Source: Deltaproteobacteria bacterium UBA2385
GTDB lineage: Bacteria; Myxococcota_A; UBA796; UBA2385
Assembly: GCA_002343455.1 (NCBI GenBank)
Contig: DDSR01000468.1
Span: 3,522-14,270, forward strand
Length of the DNA: 10,749 nucleotides
Direction: 5' to 3'
In this document: one piece after another, positions 1-10,521 of the stretch
Position numbering within the stretch: the first letter of the stretch is position 1
Layout of the letters: every line of letters starts with the position of its first letter
Position numbers and translations under genes: made by a program
Notes under the pieces: generated by a model
What the model was told of the DNA's origin: nothing
Seen by the model: the letters and a program-made list of their open reading frames with translations, nothing else
Database searches by the model: none

Positions 1-990
1 GGCGCCGACCGAGACGACCAGGCCGTCGGCGGGGGCCAGGATGGGCACCGCGCCGGCGCCCCCGCTGGTCAGGGCCGTGACCCGGCGCTGGGCGGACTGG
101 ACACGGGCCTGGGCGCGGACGACCGCGGCGCGGGCCTCCTCGACCCGTCGGTCGGAGACCAGCTCGTCGCTGACCAGCCCCTCGACCCGCCGCAGATCGG
201 CGGCGGCCAGGTCCTGGTCGACCCGGGCGGTCGCCACCTCGGCCTGCAGGCTGGCCCAGTGCTCGGCGGCCCCGGCCGGGATCAGCGTGGCGAGGCGCTC
301 GCCCCGCCGGACGCTGCGTCCCACGACCGGCAGCGTCTCGGCCCAGGCGACCAGGCCCTCGACGGGGGCGGCGACGACGGCGGTGCTGGCCGGCGCGGAC
401 TGTACGACCCCGGTGGCCTCCAGGGTCGGCGCGATCGGGCGCTCGCCGCTCGGCACCACCGCGAAGGGGACCTGCCACTGCGCCTCCTTGAGGAAGGTCA
501 CCTCGCCTTCCGCCTCGCCCTCGTGCGCGACGGCCGTGCCCGCGCCGACCTCGACCTCGCCCCCCTCCCACTCGGCCCGCTCCTGCCCGTCGACGTAGGC
601 GAAGACCAGCCGGTAGCGCCCCGCGCTCTTCGGGGCCGGCGCCTGGGCGGCGAAGATGCCGGCGCGGGCGACGGCCGGGTCGGTGTGCGACTCGACGGCG
701 AAGCCCTCCTGCTCGAAGCGGATGGTGAGGGTCCCCGAGGTCGCGGCGTGGTTGTCGGCGAGTCGGGTGACGTGGGCGTGGTAGGAGAAGGCCTGCCCGG
801 CGACGGGGGCGTCCAGCTCGACGAAGAGCTCGTGGCTGGCGGTCCAGCGGGTGATGGCGACGGACTCGCCCTCTTCGGCCTCGTGGTCGTCGGCGTGCTC
901 TCCGGCAGGACCGTGGTCGTGGCCGTGGTCGACCGTTCCATGGCCGCAGCCCAGGCTCAGCGCAAACAGAGGCAAGAGGCGGGGGATCAT
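1..990 (-). CDS. RND efflux periplasmic adaptor lipoprotein (HlyD/CusB-like), partial, C terminus off window
   Basis: This frame is open from an ATG at 990 to the window edge: 330 codons with no stop, so the C terminus lies outside. The N terminus is a lipoprotein signal (hydrophobic run, lipobox LSLG then C15). A His/Asp/Glu-rich stretch follows, with H17, H22, H24, H26, H32 and H36. Residues about 45-150 form an extra beta-rich domain (ELFVELDAPVAGQAF, HVTRLADN) of the kind that precedes the barrel-sandwich part in some CusB/CzcB-type adaptors. Residues about 190-235 look like the first lipoyl/barrel half (GVVQSAP, APVEGLVAW), 245-310 is a helical hairpin, and ILAPADGLV at 317-325 starts the second half. 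Adaptors of this family link an inner-membrane RND pump to a TolC channel. The start overlaps the stop of the outer-membrane factor gene (ATGA), indicating co-translation. Heavy-metal export is inferred from the His-rich tail and the family resemblance; the pump gene is not visible. Confidence 0.88.
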   Translation of the reverse strand, partial: MIPRLLPLFALSLGCGHGTVDHGHDHGPAGEHADDHEAEEGESVAITRWTASHELFVELDAPVAGQAFSYHAHVTRLADNHAATSGTLTIRFEQEGFAVESHTDPAVARAGIFAAQAPAPKSAGRYRLVFAYVDGQERAEWEGGEVEVGAGTAVAHEGEAEGEVTFLKEAQWQVPFAVVPSGERPIAPTLEATGVVQSAPASTAVVAAPVEGLVAWAETLPVVGRSVRRGERLATLIPAGAAEHWASLQAEVATARVDQDLAAADLRRVEGLVSDELVSDRRVEEARAAVVRAQARVQSAQRRVTALTSGGAGAVPILAPADGLVVSVGA

Positions 991-2231
991 CGGGCGAGCT
1001 CCTCGTAGAGGGAATGGATCTCGGGCTCGGGGAAGGAGCCCAGGGCGCAGGAGAGGTCCAGGGCGGCGCGGCGGCGCAGGGCCTCTCCCACGGCCATGGC
1101 GGCGGAGGCCTCGGCCACGTCCTGTGCGGCCTCCAGCAGCTCGTCGATGGAGGCCTCGCCCTGGACGTAGCGGGCGACGGCCCCGGTCCAGACGGCCTCG
1201 GCGTCGAGCCCGGTGGGGGCCGCGCCGAGCTGCTCCACGGAGAGGCGCGCCGCCTCGACCCGGGCGCGGAGCTCGGCCTCGCGGCGGAGGAGGGCGGCCT
1301 CGGCCTCGCGGAGGCTGGCCTGCGCGTCGCTGCGGCCGGCGCGGTTCCAGTCGAAGAGCGGCAGCTCCAGGGCCCCGCCGAGCTCGAAGCCGGGGTTGCC
1401 GGCGCCGCCGTTTGCGGGCGTGTCCCAGCGGGCGCCGCCCTCGATCACCAGGTCGGGCAGGGTCGAGCGGCGGGAGGCGGCCAGGGAGCGCTGGGCGGCG
1501 TCGCGCTCCAGGCGGAGGGCGGCCAGGGTCGGGTCGGAGGCGGGCTCGCCCCTGCCGGCCGCGCCGCTTGAAGGGGCCAGGCTGAGCTGCGGCACGGGCT
1601 CGCCCGTCCAACCGGCCAGGGCGGCGGCGGCGTGGGCAGCCTCGACCCGCATCCGGTCGCGCTCCACAGCCAGGGTCAGCCGCGCCAGGGCCACCCGATC
1701 CCGGTCGTAGCCGGAGCTCTCCCCCGCCTCGGCGAGGCGCCCCATGTCGCGCTCCAGGCGCTCCAGGCGGGCCAGCGCCTCCTCCAGCGCGCGGAGCTGC
1801 TCCTGGGACTGCCACTGGTCCAGGGCCGCGCCGCGCACCGTACAGATCGCGTCGAGGACCGCCGCCCGCGATCGGGAGGGGGCGGCCCGGCCGCGCAGAT
1901 CGGCGGCCTGTCGTTCCGCCAACGTGGACAGACCCAGGTCGAAGCTCAGGGCGCCTCCGAGCGCGTCGGTGGTCGAGGCGCCGCCGCCCTCCTGCTCGTG
2001 GCGAGCCGTCAGCTCGGGGTTGGCCAGCAGCGCAGGGCCGCTGCCCTGGGCCTCTCCCCGGGCCTCCACCGCGGCCAGCTCGGCCTGGAGGGTGGGCATG
2101 GAGAGCGCCCGACGCAGCAGCTCGACCTCGGTGGCGGCCTGGGCGGAGCCGGCACCGAGCCAGGACAAGGCGATGAAACTACTACAGAATGTAGTAATGA
2201 TGATTACACCTCGTCCGCCGCGTTGGTCCAT
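987..2231 (-). CDS. TolC-family outer-membrane efflux protein
   Basis: This 414-aa protein forms the outer-membrane/periplasmic channel of a tripartite efflux pump. The ATG at 2231 is chosen because GGAG stands 7 nt upstream (2238-2241), the stop of the M56 gene is only 10 nt away, and the product begins with a good signal peptide: MDQRGGRG, a hydrophobic stretch VIIITTFCSSFIALSWLG, then cleavage after SAQA. The mature part starts with TEVELLRRALS and long Ala/Glu/Arg-rich helices (about 36-60 and 130-210). The second repeat carries LPDLVIEGGARW, a beta segment ending GGALELPLFDWNRAG, and another long helix, which is the usual OEP pattern. Length is normal for CusC/CzcC-like members. Codons 12-18 of the signal peptide coincide with a 17-bp dyad matching the operator in front of the repressor gene. 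The adaptor gene follows with an ATGA overlap. The substrate cannot be read from this protein; metal is suggested by neighbours. Confidence 0.9.
   Translation of the reverse strand: MDQRGGRGVIIITTFCSSFIALSWLGAGSAQAATEVELLRRALSMPTLQAELAAVEARGEAQGSGPALLANPELTARHEQEGGGASTTDALGGALSFDLGLSTLAERQAADLRGRAAPSRSRAAVLDAICTVRGAALDQWQSQEQLRALEEALARLERLERDMGRLAEAGESSGYDRDRVALARLTLAVERDRMRVEAAHAAAALAGWTGEPVPQLSLAPSSGAAGRGEPASDPTLAALRLERDAAQRSLAASRRSTLPDLVIEGGARWDTPANGGAGNPGFELGGALELPLFDWNRAGRSDAQASLREAEAALLRREAELRARVEAARLSVEQLGAAPTGLDAEAVWTGAVARYVQGEASIDELLEAAQDVAEASAAMAVGEALRRRAALDLSCALGSFPEPEIHSLYEELAR
2180..2196. promoter_or_regulatory. Second BlaI-type operator-like dyad, inside the outer-membrane factor coding region
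   Basis: TACTACA-GAA-TGTAGTA is a perfect 7-bp inverted repeat with a 3-bp centre. It matches 14 of 17 positions of the dyad upstream of the repressor gene at 3558-3574. BlaI/MecI repressors bind TACA-N2-TGTA-type or TACTAC/GTAGTA-type dyads, so both are probably bound by the operon's own repressor. The site covers codons 12-18 of the signal peptide (ATT ACT ACA TTC TGT AGT AGT), a run of AT-rich codons unusual for this genome. It could repress an internal promoter or act as a roadblock or auxiliary site. No clear -10/-35 pair could be picked with confidence. Confidence 0.6.
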
Positions 2232-2241
2232 CGTGCGGCTC

Positions 2242-3186
2242 CTACAGCGAGAAGTTGAGCAGGTGTTCGACCTGGTGGTGCAGCCAGGGGCTGGCGAACA
2301 CACCGAGCGCCGCCAGGGCGACCAGGACGAGCAGGTCGAGCGGACCTGCGTCCGGGCGGGTCTGTTCGAGATCCAGCTCCGGAGCGAGCAGGGCCTGCAC
2401 CCGGCGCTCCAGCCGGCCGCCGGACCAGCCCAGGGCCAGGGTCGGCGTCGAGGCGCCCAGGCGGGCGCAGCGCAGCAGCGCGGCGGCGACCTGCTGGGGG
2501 TCCCCCACGGTCCGGGCCGCGTCGGCGTCGGCCCGCAGCTCGGCCCGGTCGAGCCAGGTGCGGGTCAGGGCCTCCGCGACCCCGCTCGGCGCGATCGCCA
2601 GCAGGGCGCGCAGCAGGGCCAGCACCTGCGGATCGCGGCGTCGGAGGTGGCCGTGCTCGTGGGCCAGGACAGCCGCGCGCTCGGTCTCGGTGAGCGATGC
2701 CCACAGGCCCCGGTCCACGGCCAGGGTCGGGCGCCACCAGCCGACCAGCAGGGCGATCGGCGCGCCCAGCTCCAGCACCCGCGGCGCCGCGCCGCCCCCC
2801 TGACCCAAGGGCTCACGAAGCAGCCGGGCCCAGGCCCGCAGCCGCCCGGGCAGCAGCACCGCCAGGGTCAGCAGCGCCGGGACGAACAGGGCGATGGACT
2901 CTTCGGGATGGACCGGACAGAGGTGCAGCCAGGCCGGCATCGAGTCCAGGCAGTGGCAGCCGAAGAACCGACCCGTGTGGGGGTCGCCCGGGAGGATGGC
3001 CGCCAGCGCCACCGCGCCGCCCAGCAGCCAGGGCGTCGCCGCTGCCAGCAGGGACGTGCGGGCCAGCCCGGGCCAGGCTCGGGAGGCCCGGGTCCAGGCC
3101 GGGAGCAGCACGGCGGCCGAACCCCAGGCCACCAGCAGGGCGAGGGCCGCCACGACGGTCGGCAGGGAGAGGGCGCCCAGGCTCAT
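2242..3186 (-). CDS. M56-family (BlaR1/MecR1-like) membrane metalloprotease without a beta-lactam sensor domain
   Basis: The protein has 314 aa; the ATG at 3186 overlaps the repressor stop (ATGA), so the two are coupled. It shows predicted TM segments at about 9-30, 44-66, 97-113 and 284-300. The zinc-protease motif HEHGH is at 176-180 within VLAHEHGHLRRRDP, and the downstream acidic segment AELRADADAAR is at 215-225, as in the M56 protease loop between TM3 and TM4. In BlaR1 this cytoplasmic loop leads to cleavage of BlaI when the external C-terminal penicillin-binding domain is acylated. That domain is absent: the protein ends 14 residues after TM4. The TM2-TM3 loop, extracytoplasmic by BlaR1 topology, carries H70, C77, H78, C79, H88, C90 and H93, and the tail carries H303, H304 and H308. 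I infer metal sensing in place of beta-lactam sensing. The family assignment is firm; the signal is inference. Confidence 0.9.
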   Translation of the reverse strand: MSLGALSLPTVVAALALLVAWGSAAVLLPAWTRASRAWPGLARTSLLAAATPWLLGGAVALAAILPGDPHTGRFFGCHCLDSMPAWLHLCPVHPEESIALFVPALLTLAVLLPGRLRAWARLLREPLGQGGGAAPRVLELGAPIALLVGWWRPTLAVDRGLWASLTETERAAVLAHEHGHLRRRDPQVLALLRALLAIAPSGVAEALTRTWLDRAELRADADAARTVGDPQQVAAALLRCARLGASTPTLALGWSGGRLERRVQALLAPELDLEQTRPDAGPLDLLVLVALAALGVFASPWLHHQVEHLLNFSL

Positions 3187-3548
3187 CCCCGGCCTCTCCG
3201 CGTGCGCAGCAGGTCTTCGAGCCGGTCCAGCGCCGCCGGATCGGCCTGCTCGAGCTGGTCGAGGAAGGCGACCAGCAGCGGCTCGGGGGCCCCGTCGGCC
3301 CGCTCCAGCACGCGGCCCACCTCGGCCGCCAGGGCCTGGTCCCGCGAGCGGGCGGCGACGTAGCGCCAGGCGTTGTCGACCTTGACCCGGTCGACCTCGC
3401 CCTTGTCGTGCAGGCGGTCCAGCACCGTGGCGAAGGTCGTGTAGGCCAGCAGCGGATCGACGGCGGCGTGGACCTCGCGCACGGACCACTGCCCGCCCTG
3501 CCAGAGGGTGTCGAGGACGCGGCGCTCGAGGTCGGGGGGGCGAGACAT
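3183..3548 (-). CDS. BlaI/MecI/CopY-family transcriptional repressor
   Basis: This is a 121-aa winged-helix repressor. The ATG at 3548 is preferred over a TTG 48 nt upstream because GAGG stands just before it (3554-3557) and MSRPPDLERRVLDTLW matches the usual family N terminus. Residues about 5-65 form the DNA-binding domain (REVHAAVD, then YTTFATVLDRLHDKGEVDR and a wing ending WRYVA). The C-terminal dimerisation part contains PLLVAFLDQLEQAD, which lines up with the region of staphylococcal BlaI that BlaR1 cleaves (Asn-Phe); here the pair would be A94-F95. There is no Cys, so the CopY-type CxC metal site is missing and the protein is unlikely to bind copper directly. It heads a minus-strand operon with the M56 protease, outer-membrane factor and adaptor. 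It probably represses its own operon through the dyads at 3558-3574 and 2180-2196. Confidence 0.92.
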   Translation of the reverse strand: MSRPPDLERRVLDTLWQGGQWSVREVHAAVDPLLAYTTFATVLDRLHDKGEVDRVKVDNAWRYVAARSRDQALAAEVGRVLERADGAPEPLLVAFLDQLEQADPAALDRLEDLLRTRRGRG

Positions 3549-3557
3549 GGGTTCCTC

Positions 3558-3574
3558 TACTACGGTTTGTAGTA
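3558..3574. promoter_or_regulatory. BlaI-type operator upstream of the repressor gene, probable operon promoter region
   Basis: CTACTAC-GGTTT-GTAGTAG at 3557-3575 is a perfect 7-bp inverted repeat with a 5-bp centre; the 17-bp core aligned with the second site is 3558-3574. It ends 9 bp before the repressor ATG and touches its Shine-Dalgarno sequence, a classic place for autorepression. On the minus strand TTGCGC (3596-3591) followed about 16-19 nt later by TACTAC or TACAAA inside the dyad could be the -35 and -10, so bound repressor would cover the -10. The dyad is seen directly; the promoter hexamers are weak guesses. Confidence 0.75.
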
Positions 3575-4439: not shown

Positions 4440-4558
4440 CCGGCGCGCTGTATCCAGAAACAGCGGGTGGGGTTGGGGCCTCGCCGGCCCCCCGCCTTGA
4501 AGAGGCCGGGGCCCTCCGTTACGCGTCCTGCTTGCCCGGGTCGGGCCACGAGGTGCGC
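4440..4558. other. Divergent intergenic region between the lipoprotein and helicase genes
   Basis: This 119-nt stretch must hold the promoters of both divergent genes. Besides the CTGT-N8-ACAG dyad it contains GGGGCC (4475-4480), GGCCCC (4486-4491) and GGGGCC (4508-4513). The middle copy can pair with either neighbour, giving two mutually exclusive hairpins. No convincing -10 or -35 hexamers were found. In a genome this GC-rich, short G/C arms also occur by chance. Confidence 0.4.
4448..4463. promoter_or_regulatory. LexA-box-like dyad in the divergent intergenic region
   Basis: CTGTATCCAGAAACAG fits the CTGT-N8-ACAG SOS-box consensus of enterobacterial LexA, and the symmetry extends to CGCTGT-N8-ACAGCG (4446-4465). 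It lies 9 bp upstream of the lipoprotein ATG and about 95 bp upstream of the helicase start, so it could affect either gene. A match to the eight fixed bases in 10 kb is not rare by chance, and LexA sites differ between phyla. The dyad is seen; the LexA reading is speculative. Confidence 0.25.
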
Positions 4559-6646
4559 GTGGAGAAGAGCGAAGCCGAAGGAGGGGCGGCCCTGGACCAG
4601 GCTCCGCCGGTGGTGGTGGAGGAGCTGGGCCACCTGGCGCGGGTCCGGCGCGCGCTGGCCGAGCAGCCCGAGGCCGCCGCCGCCAGCGAGACGTTGCTGG
4701 TCGGCGAGATCGTGCAGCTCCAGAACGAGATGCTCACCGCCCGGGCTGAGGACCGCTCGGCGATCCACCAGCACCTGGAGCATATGCAGGCCCGGCTGGA
4801 CCAGATCCGGCGCGGCCGCGGGGGAGAGCCGGTGGATCCGGACTCGCCCTACTTCGGGCACCTGGGCCTGCTGGAGAACGGGCGGCCCAACCACATCTTC
4901 ATCGGGCGGGCCACCCGGGTGGCCGAGGGGTTGCGCATCGTGGACTGGCGCAACGCGCCGGTCTCGCGGATGTTCTACCGCTACGAGGAGGGCGAGGAGT
5001 TCGAAGAGGAGCTGGCCGGCCGCTTCCGCGAGGGCACCATCATCGCGCGGAGGACCCTGCACATCGACCGGGGCGAGCTGCTGCGGGTCGGGACCTCGAC
5101 AGGCTCCTGGCTGCGCGAGGAGCGGGGCTGGCGCGAGCTCAGCACCGAGAGCCAGCGCCTCGCCGGGGGTCAGGGGGCGGCCCTGCGCGCCGGCCGGGCC
5201 CACGAGTCCTCGCTGGGCGCCGCCCGCGGCGGCCTGCGCGCCGACAAGCACCTGCCGGACATCGCCGCCCTGATCGACCCCGAGCAGTTCGCCCTGATCA
5301 CCGGCTCGGACAGCGGGGTGGTAGTGCTGCGGGGCTCGGCGGGCTCGGGCAAGACGACGGTGGCCCTGCACCGCATCGCCTGGCTGAACTACCAGGACCC
5401 GCGCCGCTTCGCACCCGAGCGCATGCTGGTCGTGGTCTGGGGCCGCGGCATGCGCGACTACGTCGGACACGTCCTGCCCGCGCTGGGGGTGCCCGGCGTG
5501 ACCGTCACGACCTGGGACGAGTGGTCGCGGCGGCTCGTGCTGCGCACCTTCGGCAACCAGCTCCCCCACCTCTGGGCCGACGACACCCCCGAGCCGGTGG
5601 TCCGCATCAAGCTGCACCCAGGGGTGGCCGAGCTGCTGGCCGCCCACATCCGCACGACGCCGGGCAAGCCGCGCCCGCTCCAGGCCATCGAGGACTGGGC
5701 CACCATCCTGACCGACCGGGCCGCCATCGCCGCCGCCATGGGCACGGACATCAGCGAGGCCGCCCTGGATCGCGCCATGCGCTGGCTGCTGGACCAGACC
5801 CGGGCCGTCGTCTCCTTCGCCAACGGCCGCTCGGACGCTGACGCCCGCCTGGACGACGAGGACGCCGCCCTGCTGCTGCGGGCCGCCCAGCTCCGGCTGG
5901 GCCCCCTCAAGGACAAGAACGGCAAGGCGCTGGCCCACGCCCACATCGCCCTGGACGAGGTCCAGGACTTCTCGCCGATCGAGGTCCAGGTCCTGCTCGA
6001 CACCGCCGACAAGCACCGCTGCGTCACCCTCGCCGGCGACGTGCGCCAGCACATCAGCGAGGCGGCCGGCTTCTCCTCCTGGACGGAATTCCTGGAGCGC
6101 ATCGGGGTGCCCTCGACCAGCCTCGCCACCCTGGAGATCAGCTACCGCTCGACCCACCCGATCACCGCCTTCGCCGTCTCCGTGCTGGGCGATCACGGCG
6201 AGCCCCCGCCTCGCACCACCCGCGACGGCCCGGCGGTCGAGCTCTTCCCCTTCACCGATCTGGGCGCCACCATCGCCTTCCTGGCGCAGGAGCTGCGCGG
6301 CCTGCTGATGCGCGAGCCGCTGGCCAACGTCGCCATCCTGACCCCCAACGCCGAGATCTCCCGACTCTGCTTCGACGGGCTGCGCCGGGCCGAGGTCAAC
6401 AACCTGCGGCTGGTGGTCGATCAGGACTTCGCCTTCGCCCCCGGGATCGACGTGGTCGAGGCCGGCGAGGTCAAGGGCCTGGAGTTCGACTACGTGGTCG
6501 TGGTCGAGGTCAGCGCGAAGTATTGGCCCGACAGCGCCCACCATCGCCGCCTGCTGCACGTCGCCGCCACCCGCGCGGTCCACCAGCTCTGGCTGACCTG
6601 CACGGGCACCCTCTCCCCCATCCTGCCGGAGGCTGTCCGTGGCTGA
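4559..6646 (+). CDS. helD: HelD-like superfamily 1 helicase / RNA polymerase remodelling ATPase
   Basis: HelD proteins are UvrD-like SF1 ATPases that bind RNA polymerase, insert a coiled-coil arm into its secondary channel and release it from stalled or nucleic-acid-bound states. The N-terminal about 85 residues look like a coiled-coil arm (LLVGEIVQLQNEM, HLEHMQARLDQIRRG). The HelD-typical segment SPYFGHLGL ... IFIGRA ... LRIVDWRNAPVSRMFYRYEEG follows. Walker A is GSAGSGKTTVALHR with K265, Walker B is ALDEVQD with D466/E467, and late motifs include VKGLEFDYVVVVE and VAATRA with R672. The chosen GTG at 4559 has GAGG 5 nt upstream. TTG 4532 and GTG 4553 are alternatives, and a strong AAGGAGG at 4578 precedes only an in-frame CTG at 4592. 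At about 695 aa it is slightly shorter than typical Gram-positive HelD. A UvrD/Rep DNA-repair role is less likely given the DWRNAPVSRMFYR signature. Its stop overlaps the next gene. Confidence 0.88.
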   Translation: MEKSEAEGGAALDQAPPVVVEELGHLARVRRALAEQPEAAAASETLLVGEIVQLQNEMLTARAEDRSAIHQHLEHMQARLDQIRRGRGGEPVDPDSPYFGHLGLLENGRPNHIFIGRATRVAEGLRIVDWRNAPVSRMFYRYEEGEEFEEELAGRFREGTIIARRTLHIDRGELLRVGTSTGSWLREERGWRELSTESQRLAGGQGAALRAGRAHESSLGAARGGLRADKHLPDIAALIDPEQFALITGSDSGVVVLRGSAGSGKTTVALHRIAWLNYQDPRRFAPERMLVVVWGRGMRDYVGHVLPALGVPGVTVTTWDEWSRRLVLRTFGNQLPHLWADDTPEPVVRIKLHPGVAELLAAHIRTTPGKPRPLQAIEDWATILTDRAAIAAAMGTDISEAALDRAMRWLLDQTRAVVSFANGRSDADARLDDEDAALLLRAAQLRLGPLKDKNGKALAHAHIALDEVQDFSPIEVQVLLDTADKHRCVTLAGDVRQHISEAAGFSSWTEFLERIGVPSTSLATLEISYRSTHPITAFAVSVLGDHGEPPPRTTRDGPAVELFPFTDLGATIAFLAQELRGLLMREPLANVAILTPNAEISRLCFDGLRRAEVNNLRLVVDQDFAFAPGIDVVEAGEVKGLEFDYVVVVEVSAKYWPDSAHHRRLLHVAATRAVHQLWLTCTGTLSPILPEAVRG

Positions 6647-7701: not shown

Positions 7702-9828
7702 ATGCCCAACCGCCTCGCTCACGAGACCAGCCCCTACCTCCTCCAGCACCAGCACAACCCGGTCGACTGGTACCCCTGGGGTCCCGAGGCCCTGGCCCTG
7801 GCCAAGGAGCTGGATCGGCCGATCCTGCTCAGCGTCGGCTACAGCGCCTGCCACTGGTGCCACGTCATGGAGCGGGAGAGCTTCGAGGACGCCGACACCG
7901 CCGCGGTGATGAACGAGGGCTTCGTCAACATCAAGGTCGACCGCGAGGAGCGGCCCGATCTCGACGAGATCTACATGCGGGCGGTGCAGGCCTTCAGCGG
8001 CGGGCACGGCGGCTGGCCGATGACCCTCTTCCTCACCCCCGACGGCGCGCCCTTCCTGGCCGGGACCTACTTCCCGCCGACGGCCCGCCAGGGCATGCCC
8101 AGCTTCCGCCAGATCATGGCCCACGCCCTGACGGTCTACCGCGAGCAGAAGGGTCGGCTGGACGAGGTCACGCGCGAGGTGAAGCGCTACCTCGAAGCCA
8201 GCGGGCGGCTGCCGGCGGCGGCGGGAGAGGTCGGCGGCGACTGGCTGGCCCGCATCGCCGAGGCGGCCCGGCAGGAGTTCGACGCCGAGCGCGGCGGCTT
8301 CGGGGCTGCCCCCAAGTTCCCCCCCCACGGCACCCTGGCCGTGCTGCTGGCCCACCACCACCGCAGCGGCGAGGCCCGCAGCCTGGAGATGGCGACCCGG
8401 ACCCTCGACGCCATGGCCAAGGGCGGGATGTACGATCAGCTCAGCGGGGGCTTCGCCCGCTACTCGGTGGACAAGGACTGGCGCATCCCCCACTTCGAGA
8501 AGATGCTCTACGACCAGGCGCAGATCGCCGTGAACTGCCTGGAGGCGCGGCAGGCGACTGGCGACGAACGGTTCGCCTGGCTCGCGCGGGGCATCTTCGA
8601 GTACGTCGCGCGCGATCTCACCGGGCCGGAGGGCGGATTCTTGACCGCCGAGGATGCCGACAGCGCGGTGGCGGATCCGGTCGCGGGCGAGCCGGACCAC
8701 GCGGAAGGCGCGTTCTACGTCTGGCGGGCCGACGAACTCCGGGCCGCGCTCGGCGACGACTACGTGCTGCTGGCCGCGCACTTCGGGCTGGAGGAAGGCG
8801 GCAACGTCCCCGCGCGGCTCGATCCGCAGGGTGAGTTCCGCGGACGCAACATCCTCGTGCAGCGCCGCCCGCTCGCCGACACCGCGCGGCAGTTCGCGCT
8901 CGATCCCGAGGCGGCGAGCGACCGCCTGCTCGCGCTGGTGGGTCGCGTGCGGGAACTGCGCGCGCGCCGGCCGCGGCCCCATCGCGACGACAAGGTCCTC
9001 GCCGCGAACAACGGCCTCATGATCTCGGCGCTCGCGCGGGCCCACCAGGTGCTGGGCTCGGAGGACGGGACGCGCTACCTCGATGCCGCGGTGCGGGCGG
9101 CGGAGTTCCTCGCCCGCGAGCTGCACGACGCGCAGCGGGGCGTCCTCTTCCGCACCTGGCGCGCCGGCCGGGCCGGCACGGAAGGTTTCGCGGAAGACTA
9201 CGCGTTCGTGATCCAGGGCCTGCTCGACCTGTACGAGGCGTCCTTCGACCTGCGCTGGCTCCAGTGGGCGGTGTGGCTGCAGCGCACGCTCGACGCGCAG
9301 TTCTGGGACGAGGCGCACGGGGGTTATTTCAACTCCTCCGCCGGCGACCGGCACCTGGTGCTGCGGCTGAAGGAGGATTACGACGGCGCGGAACCCGCGG
9401 CGAGCAGCGTGGCGGCGATGAACCTGTTCCGGCTGGCGGCCATAGCCCAGGATGAGGCGCTGCGCCAGCGCGGCCGTCGGACCGTAGAGGCGTTCCGCGA
9501 CCGGTGGTCGAAGGCGCCGCACGCCCTGCCGCAGATGCTCTGCGCGCTGGAACTCGCCCTCGAACCGCCGCGACATGTCGTGCTCGCGGGCGATCCCGCG
9601 CGCCCGGACTTCCGCGCGCTCGCCGCCGTGCTGCACGAGCGGCTCGGACCGCGGCGCATCCTCCTCGGCGCCACGGGTGGCGAGGCCCGGGAGTGGCTCG
9701 CGCGCCGGGCGCCCTGGCTCGCCGGCATGGAGCCACGTGACGGCCGGGCGACGGCCTACGTCTGCGAGGAGTTCGCCTGTCAGGCGCCGGTCACGGAACC
9801 GGCGGAGTTGCGCGCCCGGTTGCGCTGA
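7702..9828 (+). CDS. yyaL: YyaL/DUF255 family protein (thioredoxin-fold plus alpha/alpha-barrel)
   Basis: This 708-aa protein is full length for the YyaL (SSP411/spermatogenesis-associated 20) family. The N-terminal DUF255 thioredoxin-like domain begins [21 protein letters not shown] and has [10 protein letters not shown] with C50 and C53 in a CxxC arrangement, then [13 protein letters not shown] and [11 protein letters not shown]. The rest resembles an N-acylglucosamine 2-epimerase-like (alpha/alpha)6 barrel, with [12 protein letters not shown] (260-271), TAEDADS, FYVW, ILV, and near the C terminus [11 protein letters not shown]. The biochemical activity of the family is not settled. The ATG at 7702 matches the family start, although no clear Shine-Dalgarno is visible. 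It follows the preceding gene by 52 nt on the same strand. Codon use changes within the gene near residue 275 (about 8,524). I counted 23 GCC against 9 GCG Ala codons before 8,520 and about 14 against 28 in the next 720 nt, with GAA also becoming common. Confidence 0.93.
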
Positions 9829-9915: not shown

Positions 9916-10521
9916 GTGAAGATCCTCACCGTTGAAGATGACGCCGTGTCGCGGGCGGTCCTGCGCCAGTCGCTCGCCAAGCTCGGCCACGAGGCGGTCG
10001 AGGCCGAGGACGGCAACGCGGCGTGGGACTTGTTGCAGCGAACGGACTCCGTCCGTGTCGTCGTCAGCGACTGGATCATGCCCAACAGCGACGGGCTCGA
10101 GCTCTGCAAGCGGGTCCGGGCGCGCACCGACCGCGAGTACGTGTACTTCGTCCTGCTCACCAGCCGCGATGCGACCGGCGAGAACCGGATGGCGGCCGCG
10201 GACGCGGGGGTGGACGACTTTCTCACCAAGCCGCTCGAGTATTCCGATCTCTGGACGCGGCTCCGGGTGGCGGAGCGCATCCTGCGGTACACGACGCAGG
10301 TCCGGCAGCTCGAGGAGATGCTTCCGATCTGCTCCTACTGCAAAAAAATCCGCGACGACCAGAACTACTGGCAGCAGCTGGAGGGCTATATCAGCGAGCG
10401 CACCGGCAGCGACTTCAGCCATTCGGTCTGCCCGGATTGCTACCAACGGATGATCCTGCCGGAAATCGAACGGATGAAAGCCGCCGCCAAGCCGAAGGCA
10501 TCCCGTGAACGAAAGCATTAG
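9916..10521 (+). CDS. Response regulator: receiver domain with a C-terminal CxxC...CxxC segment
   Basis: This 201-aa protein starts at GTG 9916 (V/M-KILTVEDD, the normal receiver start); the TTG upstream at 9874 would add 14 unlikely residues. The receiver domain spans about 1-125, with the acidic pair D8/D9, phospho-acceptor D52 in VSDWIMPNSDG, T82 in LLTSRD and K105 in LTKPLE, so all key residues are present. A short helix (VRQLEEM) leads to a tail with CSYC (139-142), KKIRDDQNYWQQLEGYIS and HSVCPDC (169-175). The two CxxC pairs suggest a zinc-ribbon-like fold. There is no recognisable DNA-binding or enzyme output domain. This tail recurs after receiver domains in several phyla and its function is unknown to me. 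No kinase gene is visible nearby. No Shine-Dalgarno precedes the GTG. The gene overlaps slyX by 17 bp. Codon use resembles the second half of the YyaL gene, not the region to the left. Confidence 0.9.
   Translation: MKILTVEDDAVSRAVLRQSLAKLGHEAVEAEDGNAAWDLLQRTDSVRVVVSDWIMPNSDGLELCKRVRARTDREYVYFVLLTSRDATGENRMAAADAGVDDFLTKPLEYSDLWTRLRVAERILRYTTQVRQLEEMLPICSYCKKIRDDQNYWQQLEGYISERTGSDFSHSVCPDCYQRMILPEIERMKAAAKPKASRERKH

Follow-up and report, generated by a model that had tools for sequence, protein, structure and literature searches.

The window analysed here, a DNA stretch of 10,749 nucleotides from Deltaproteobacteria bacterium UBA2385, is part of contig C77 in an assembly of 496 contigs (6.76 Mb, 87.6% complete). 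Its minus strand carries, in this order, the genes for a BlaI-type repressor, an M56 protein, a TolC/OEP channel and the first part of an RND adaptor (Table 1). The gene for an RND permease lies outside the window on the same contig (L003:2-2965, minus strand) and is open at the contig end. With the adaptor fragment, 40.9 bits were obtained for TIGR01730 and 29.2 bits for TIGR00999, both under the cut-offs when applied to a fragment.

Elsewhere in the window, positions 4532-6646 encode a HelD/HelR-like RNA polymerase recycling helicase, which at 158 of 419 bits stays far under the cut-offs of the named models. A DUF255/thioredoxin-like gene (7702-9828) shows a jump in CGCG per 500 bases from 5 (8001-8500) to 25 (8501-9000) with the frame staying open, which may reflect recombination or an assembly join. 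The product of 9916-10521 has a response-regulator receiver domain, then a C-terminal stretch with Cys residues (CSYCKKIRDD) and no Pfam output domain.

Table 1. Features of the repressor, protease and pump operon, in window positions.
Feature	Position	Strand	Remarks
RND periplasmic adaptor (CusB/CzcB type)	1..990	-	His-rich N-terminus HGHDHG; cut by window edge
TolC/OEP outer-membrane channel gene	987..2231	-	PF02321, 54 bits (cut-off 22); start at 2231 inferred
Second dyad TACTAC-N5-GTAGTA	2180..2196	.	5' end of the OEP gene
BlaR1-like membrane metalloprotease (M56 protein)	2242..3186	-	314 aa; without C-terminal sensor domain; 4-base overlap with blaI
C-terminal tail HHxxEH	2263..2280	-	Residues 303-308 of the M56 protein
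HEHGH catalytic zinc motif	2647..2661	-	Residues 176-180 of the M56 protein
Predicted periplasmic TM2-TM3 loop (EL1 position)	2905..2991	-	Residues 66-94 of the M56 protein
blaI-type repressor	3183..3548	-	121 aa, no Cys; PF03965 Penicillinase_R, 72.3 bits (cut-off 22.6)
Dyad TACTAC-N5-GTAGTA	3558..3574	.	9 bases ahead of the blaI start codon

Family and predicted fold of the M56 protein

The BlaR1/BlaI and MecR1/MecI systems of Staphylococcus and Bacillus use proteases of peptidase family M56, and BlaR1 is the standard example of gene switching by a membrane protease. An earlier note on this DNA had described the window protein as an M56 protein with an HEHGH motif, an end shortly past the last transmembrane segment and Cys and His residues at named positions, and all of this was confirmed in the sequence. 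With Pfam PF05569 the protein scored 26.4 bits, under the cut-off of 31; since precomputed domain assignments list PF05569 for the query and for many relatives, this shortfall is only marginal. PF01435 (M48) gave 29 bits at a cut-off of 20.3, models for HtpX gave 15-25 bits at cut-offs of 245-422, and in a sequence search of the PDB the only hit was a weak one to HtpX (E 0.43). The residues H176, E177, H180, E216, D220 and R262, that is, the HEXXH motif, the third zinc ligand and the gluzincin residues, were found in 86 of 86 aligned rows.

The predicted model of the M56 protein has the transmembrane and protease fold of BlaR1. Its best match was BlaR1, and the TM2-TM3 loop fell at the BlaR1 signalling loop EL1 (VIA-align). 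Foldseek also ranked BlaR1 first, though with no E under 0.001, so that the fold assignment rests on VIA-align. As the earlier note had supposed, the loop is predicted to be periplasmic and not cytoplasmic. Over the loop, model confidence was high in the window's group (ten-residue means of 88-95 across residues 61-100), and it was 63-78 across residues 81-100 in a second group of relatives. The protein thus resembles the BlaR1 and MecR1 proteases, but it stops shortly after TM4 and has no C-terminal, beta-lactam-binding sensor domain; instead, its EL1 carries Cys and His residues, its C-terminus is a short HHxxEH tail, and metal-pump genes come after its gene. One further residue, C240 (window 2467-2469) in the predicted cytoplasmic domain, was kept in 81 of 90 homologues.

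Conserved candidate ligands in the loop and the tail

The loop of the window protein offers H70, C77, H78, C79, H88, C90 and H93 as candidate ligands, and the motif of its family reads CHCxxSMPxWLHLCPxHP. Among the 90 rows recovered by protein search, a set which includes the query and a few remote proteins, H70 was present in 78, C77 in 85, H78 in 87 and C79 in 80, while H88, C90 and H93 were each found in 87, H303 and H304 each in 88 and H308 in 87. After removal of two fragments and two non-members, the resulting 86-row alignment had ten Cys/His columns conserved to at least 97%, and all ten were either catalytic (H176, H180) or located in the loop (C77, H78, H88, C90, H93) or the tail (H303, H304, H308). 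The positions named at the outset are therefore conserved among orthologues of the same operon type. A second group, which shares about 30% identity with that of the window, behaved similarly: 11 of its 12 Cys/His columns at or above 97% were catalytic or belonged to loop and tail, and D81, C83, H90, H92, C94, H97, H319 and E323, together with the catalytic residues, were found in 80 of 80 rows. When 53 loop-bearing proteins were picked, plasmid copies included, H176, E177, H180, D220, R262 and E307 were invariant, and C79, H88, C90 and H303 each reached at least 90%.

Besides the loop of the window's type, a second type, DHCxxHxxHxHLCxxH, was frequent. We found 116 proteins of this kind, of which the four weakest were left out, and 80 entered the alignment for the second model. 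The loop motif was present in 109 of the 112 proteins counted and an H[HQ]xxE tail in 111; two of the three proteins that missed the loop motif are fragments, and the third reads DDC. In one Myxococcota M56 relative (L132:2389-3621) the TM2-TM3 loop has grown into a long His-repeat with 22 Cys and His residues.

Plasmids were searched as well. No match was obtained with query P0091, and query P0094 gave 10 records, none of them covering 80% of the query; four of these records, three gammaproteobacterial and one from Streptomyces, were examined. All three gammaproteobacterial operons (Pseudomonas, Shewanella and Pseudoalteromonas) have the same gene order as the window and a pump annotated as CusA/CzcA. 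The Pseudomonas loop reads CSAHADALLHLCVWH, with HLCVWH, and is accompanied by the tail LHSVTE. The loops from Shewanella and Pseudoalteromonas read FAHWHHVD or FAHWHHID, being His-based and free of Cys, and their tails are LHHIIE and FHHFIE.

These loops bear on the question of whether C77, C79 and C90 could form a redox sensor, making or breaking disulphides tuned by the His residues, with a pump that would export a toxic organic compound or answer oxidative stress. Such a role would suit a predicted periplasmic loop with three Cys residues, two of them conserved to at least 97% in the 86 rows. We nevertheless consider it very unlikely, because the His residues (and in the second group also Asp) are conserved as strongly as the Cys residues, some plasmid relatives with the same gene order have the Cys-free loop, and the pumps are members of the heavy-metal RND family.

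Genomic context of loop-bearing proteins

Relatives that carry an organism name are myxococcal, and a search of 377 Myxococcota genomes yielded matches in 106 of them, at 129 places. The 129 loci examined consist of the window, one loop-less paralogue from its genome and 127 of the 128 remaining places; L005-L007, duplicates of L039, L044 and L046, and G037:C63 were left out. Proteins with at least four Cys and His residues in the TM2-TM3 segment were classed as loop-bearing, a threshold that was set after the sequences were seen. This gave 93 loop-bearing and 36 loop-less loci, the latter including M48/HtpX-like proteins and not M56 proteins alone. A BlaI gene was adjacent in 93 of 93 loop-bearing loci as opposed to 14 of 36 loop-less ones, and H303 and E307 were both present in 88/93 loop-bearing proteins versus 4/14 BlaI-linked loop-less proteins. 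Among loci with 1.5 kb or more of sequence downstream, an OEP, adaptor or RND gene followed on the same strand for 80 of the 84 loop-bearing ones, compared with 1 of 32 loop-less loci and none of the 12 that were BlaI-linked. The paralogue from the window's own genome (L169:1001-2244, contig C130), a second BlaI/M56 pair with neither Cys/His loop nor pump genes, is a natural control.

The earlier note had proposed to ask whether the loop ligands occur only beside BlaI and pump genes. From the loop-less side this held, as none of the 12 BlaI-linked loci was followed by a pump; from the other side it held almost, though not wholly, as the four pump-less loop-bearing loci with enough sequence (L065, L082, L141 and L150) each lie beside a gene for a TonB-dependent receptor. 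The copy on a Streptomyces plasmid comprises BlaI and M56 genes and lacks both loop and pump, and two short M56 proteins of Streptomyces have no Cys and a single His in the TM2-TM3 segment, one of them keeping a tail HxxxE. The idea that the loop is a generic trait of short M56 proteins was rejected, given its absence from the BlaI-linked loop-less proteins and the two Streptomyces proteins.

The exceptional loci raise the possibility that metal represses, or that BlaI is merely sequestered and remains uncut, the switch then governing metal uptake or balance. Apart from the four TonB-dependent receptor genes standing in the place of a pump, the contig of L150 carries, about 4.5 kb off, a partial gene for a ZigA-like zinc GTPase (486.6 bits, cut-off 600). 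This alternative appears highly improbable to us, since efflux is encoded by most operons (80/84) and since no row in either group lacks the catalytic residues. The TonB-linked pairs may represent an arm of this switch that serves metal uptake.

The Cys/His cluster could also be a structural metal site that pins the loop to the tail, the signal being something else, such as pump overload, a partner protein or envelope stress. A pinned loop would fit the coil that the first model predicts with confidence, and structural and sensory sites look alike in sequence. Against this, BlaI-linked loop-less M56 proteins manage without any such site, and it is these that have no metal pump after them; we regard a purely structural role as unlikely.

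On a tree of the 107 BlaI-linked proteins, from which loop and tail columns had been removed, the presence of the loop needs 2 changes, and the association of loop and pump is represented by 1 supported independent pair. The association is clean, yet it comprises only one or two independent events, and for this reason Fisher values overstate it. The loop types were compared with the pumps in the same way. The window's type and the second type pair with pumps whose TM4 reads VDD, and other loops, which are of several kinds (LHQxE..C..DH, for example), mostly pair with VDG pumps. In 60 of 63 operons the loop type matches the pump type (42+18; 59 of 63 by a cruder regular expression), the exceptions being L057, L122 and L079. 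With 1 independent pair on supported branches of the tree and 3 overall, this agreement may be explained equally well by co-inheritance. Counting independent changes added no significance, either for loop and pump or for loop type and pump type.

The 6.76 Mb assembly contains just two exact matches to TACTAC-N5-GTAGTA, and both belong to this operon. The dyad ahead of blaI is a probable BlaI operator; the second lies within the signal-peptide codons of the OEP gene if that gene starts with the ATG at 2231. Where a perfect TAC..GTA dyad lay ahead of blaI, its spacer measured 5 bases (17 bp) in 12 of 12 loop-bearing loci and 4 bases (16 bp) in 6 of 6 loop-less ones. By this strict test no perfect dyad was found in 81 of 93 loop-bearing and 8 of 14 loop-less BlaI-linked loci; the placement of repressor starts in this survey missed the window's own operator, which was seen by direct search of the assembly.

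CopY-type repressors bind metal through a Cys-rich CxC..CxC motif. This motif appeared in none of the 107 BlaI partners; Cys is missing altogether from the window's repressor, and likewise from 71 of the 93 loop-linked repressors. Direct, CopY-like metal sensing by the repressor was rejected on this ground.

The pump, its likely metal and a proposed switch

The RND permease of the window's operon passes TIGR00914 (CusA/CzcA heavy metal) with 707.4 bits against a cut-off of 701.45, 988 aa of it being present, and 8 of 9 RND proteins tested were over this cut-off, the ninth being a fragment of 729 residues. At the Met triad of CusA, which we take to be positions 573/623/672, the pump has A, Y and H, and Met was found at either of the first two places in just 1 of 63 pumps. 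CusA-like specificity for Cu(I)/Ag(I) is thus not supported. The missing triad argues against these ions without proving another one, and because of it we favour a divalent ion, which is probably what is sensed. Zn2+ would be our first guess, with Cd2+, Co2+ or Ni2+ possible; the partial ZigA-like GTPase gives a weak hint in the direction of zinc.

A Cys/His loop and tail, predicted to face outwards and encoded beside heavy-metal pump genes, suggest that the protease probably switches the pump on when metal accumulates outside the inner membrane. We propose, with a probability of roughly 0.7, that this sensor-less BlaR1-type protease uses EL1 and the tail as a metal sensor that activates BlaI cleavage and, with it, pump expression. 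The loop and the short tail would take the place of the beta-lactam sensor. When metal rises in the periplasm, it would be bound by the Cys and His residues of the TM2-TM3 loop jointly with the His residues of the tail. Binding would shift TM3, which in BlaR1 leads directly from EL1 into the protease domain, so that metal would stand in for the beta-lactam-driven displacement of EL1. The cytoplasmic HEHGH site would then cut BlaI, the cut repressor would leave the dyads ahead of blaI and at the OEP gene, and repressor, protease and the OEP-adaptor-RND metal pump would be expressed. Metal is favoured over other signals because the ligand set varies among the types yet stays ligand-rich, because the pump is a heavy-metal RND and because the repressor is without the CopY-type motif. 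The metal-responsive variant of the BlaR1/BlaI switch put forward in the earlier note is partly supported and was largely right in direction.

Signalling through EL1 and helix 3 is described for BlaR1 in the excerpted text of PMC9834060. The protease PetP of Synechocystis is described as degrading PetR when copper is present (PMC12292863, PMC7896320, PMC10141476, PMC13421787), which runs counter to the earlier note's remark of knowing no characterised example. As these sources describe it, PetP is likewise a BlaR-family membrane protease that responds to metal and removes a regulator of the BlaI/CopY family, and by analogy it shows that a BlaR-type protease is able to respond to metal. PetR/PetP, however, controls plastocyanin and cytochrome c6, while the window's operon encodes metal efflux and its protein family has an identifiable extracytoplasmic ligand loop, a comparison made with the description of PetP only. 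BlaR-family homologues whose role is given as unknown are mentioned for several marine bacteria in an excerpt of PMC10141476. In the excerpt of PMC9834060, a Mycobacterium tuberculosis BlaR homologue is said to lack the sensor domain and its way of detecting beta-lactams is called unclear; going by this description, it and the window protein are both protease domains without a sensor domain. For Porphyromonas gingivalis, M56 and BlaI genes with neighbouring tags are reported, with no metal link stated in the excerpt (PMC10470040). Among titles and abstract openings of the open-licence literature, none described an EL1 loop with Cys and His residues in M56 proteins, nor a metal operon made up of BlaI, M56 and RND genes.

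CopY-type repressors and two-component systems such as CusRS/CzcRS, whose sensors face the outside, regulate operons for metal homeostasis or efflux. The switch proposed here differs from the former in that its repressor does not have the CopY-type Cys motif, and from the latter in that its membrane sensor is a protease and not a kinase; it would thus point to a third route for the control of metal efflux, beside two-component systems and cytoplasmic repressors. As a variant of BlaR1/BlaI it merits solid interest, its sensor having been reduced to a loop that is directly testable. A receptor cut down to a protease and a loop with an obvious candidate ligand set would offer a small, mutable system in which to ask if movement of EL1 alone suffices to switch on an M56 protease. 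A wider reading, held tentatively and at a shade under even odds, is that EL1 serves M56 proteases as an exchangeable sensor and that a large family in Myxococcota and Gammaproteobacteria reads periplasmic metal with a ligand loop of 15-30 residues and a His tail, the loop type (HLCxxH, C..DH or HWHH) being tuned to the controlled pump. If true, an exchangeable EL1 would explain in concrete terms by what means BlaR homologues without a sensor domain perceive their signals.
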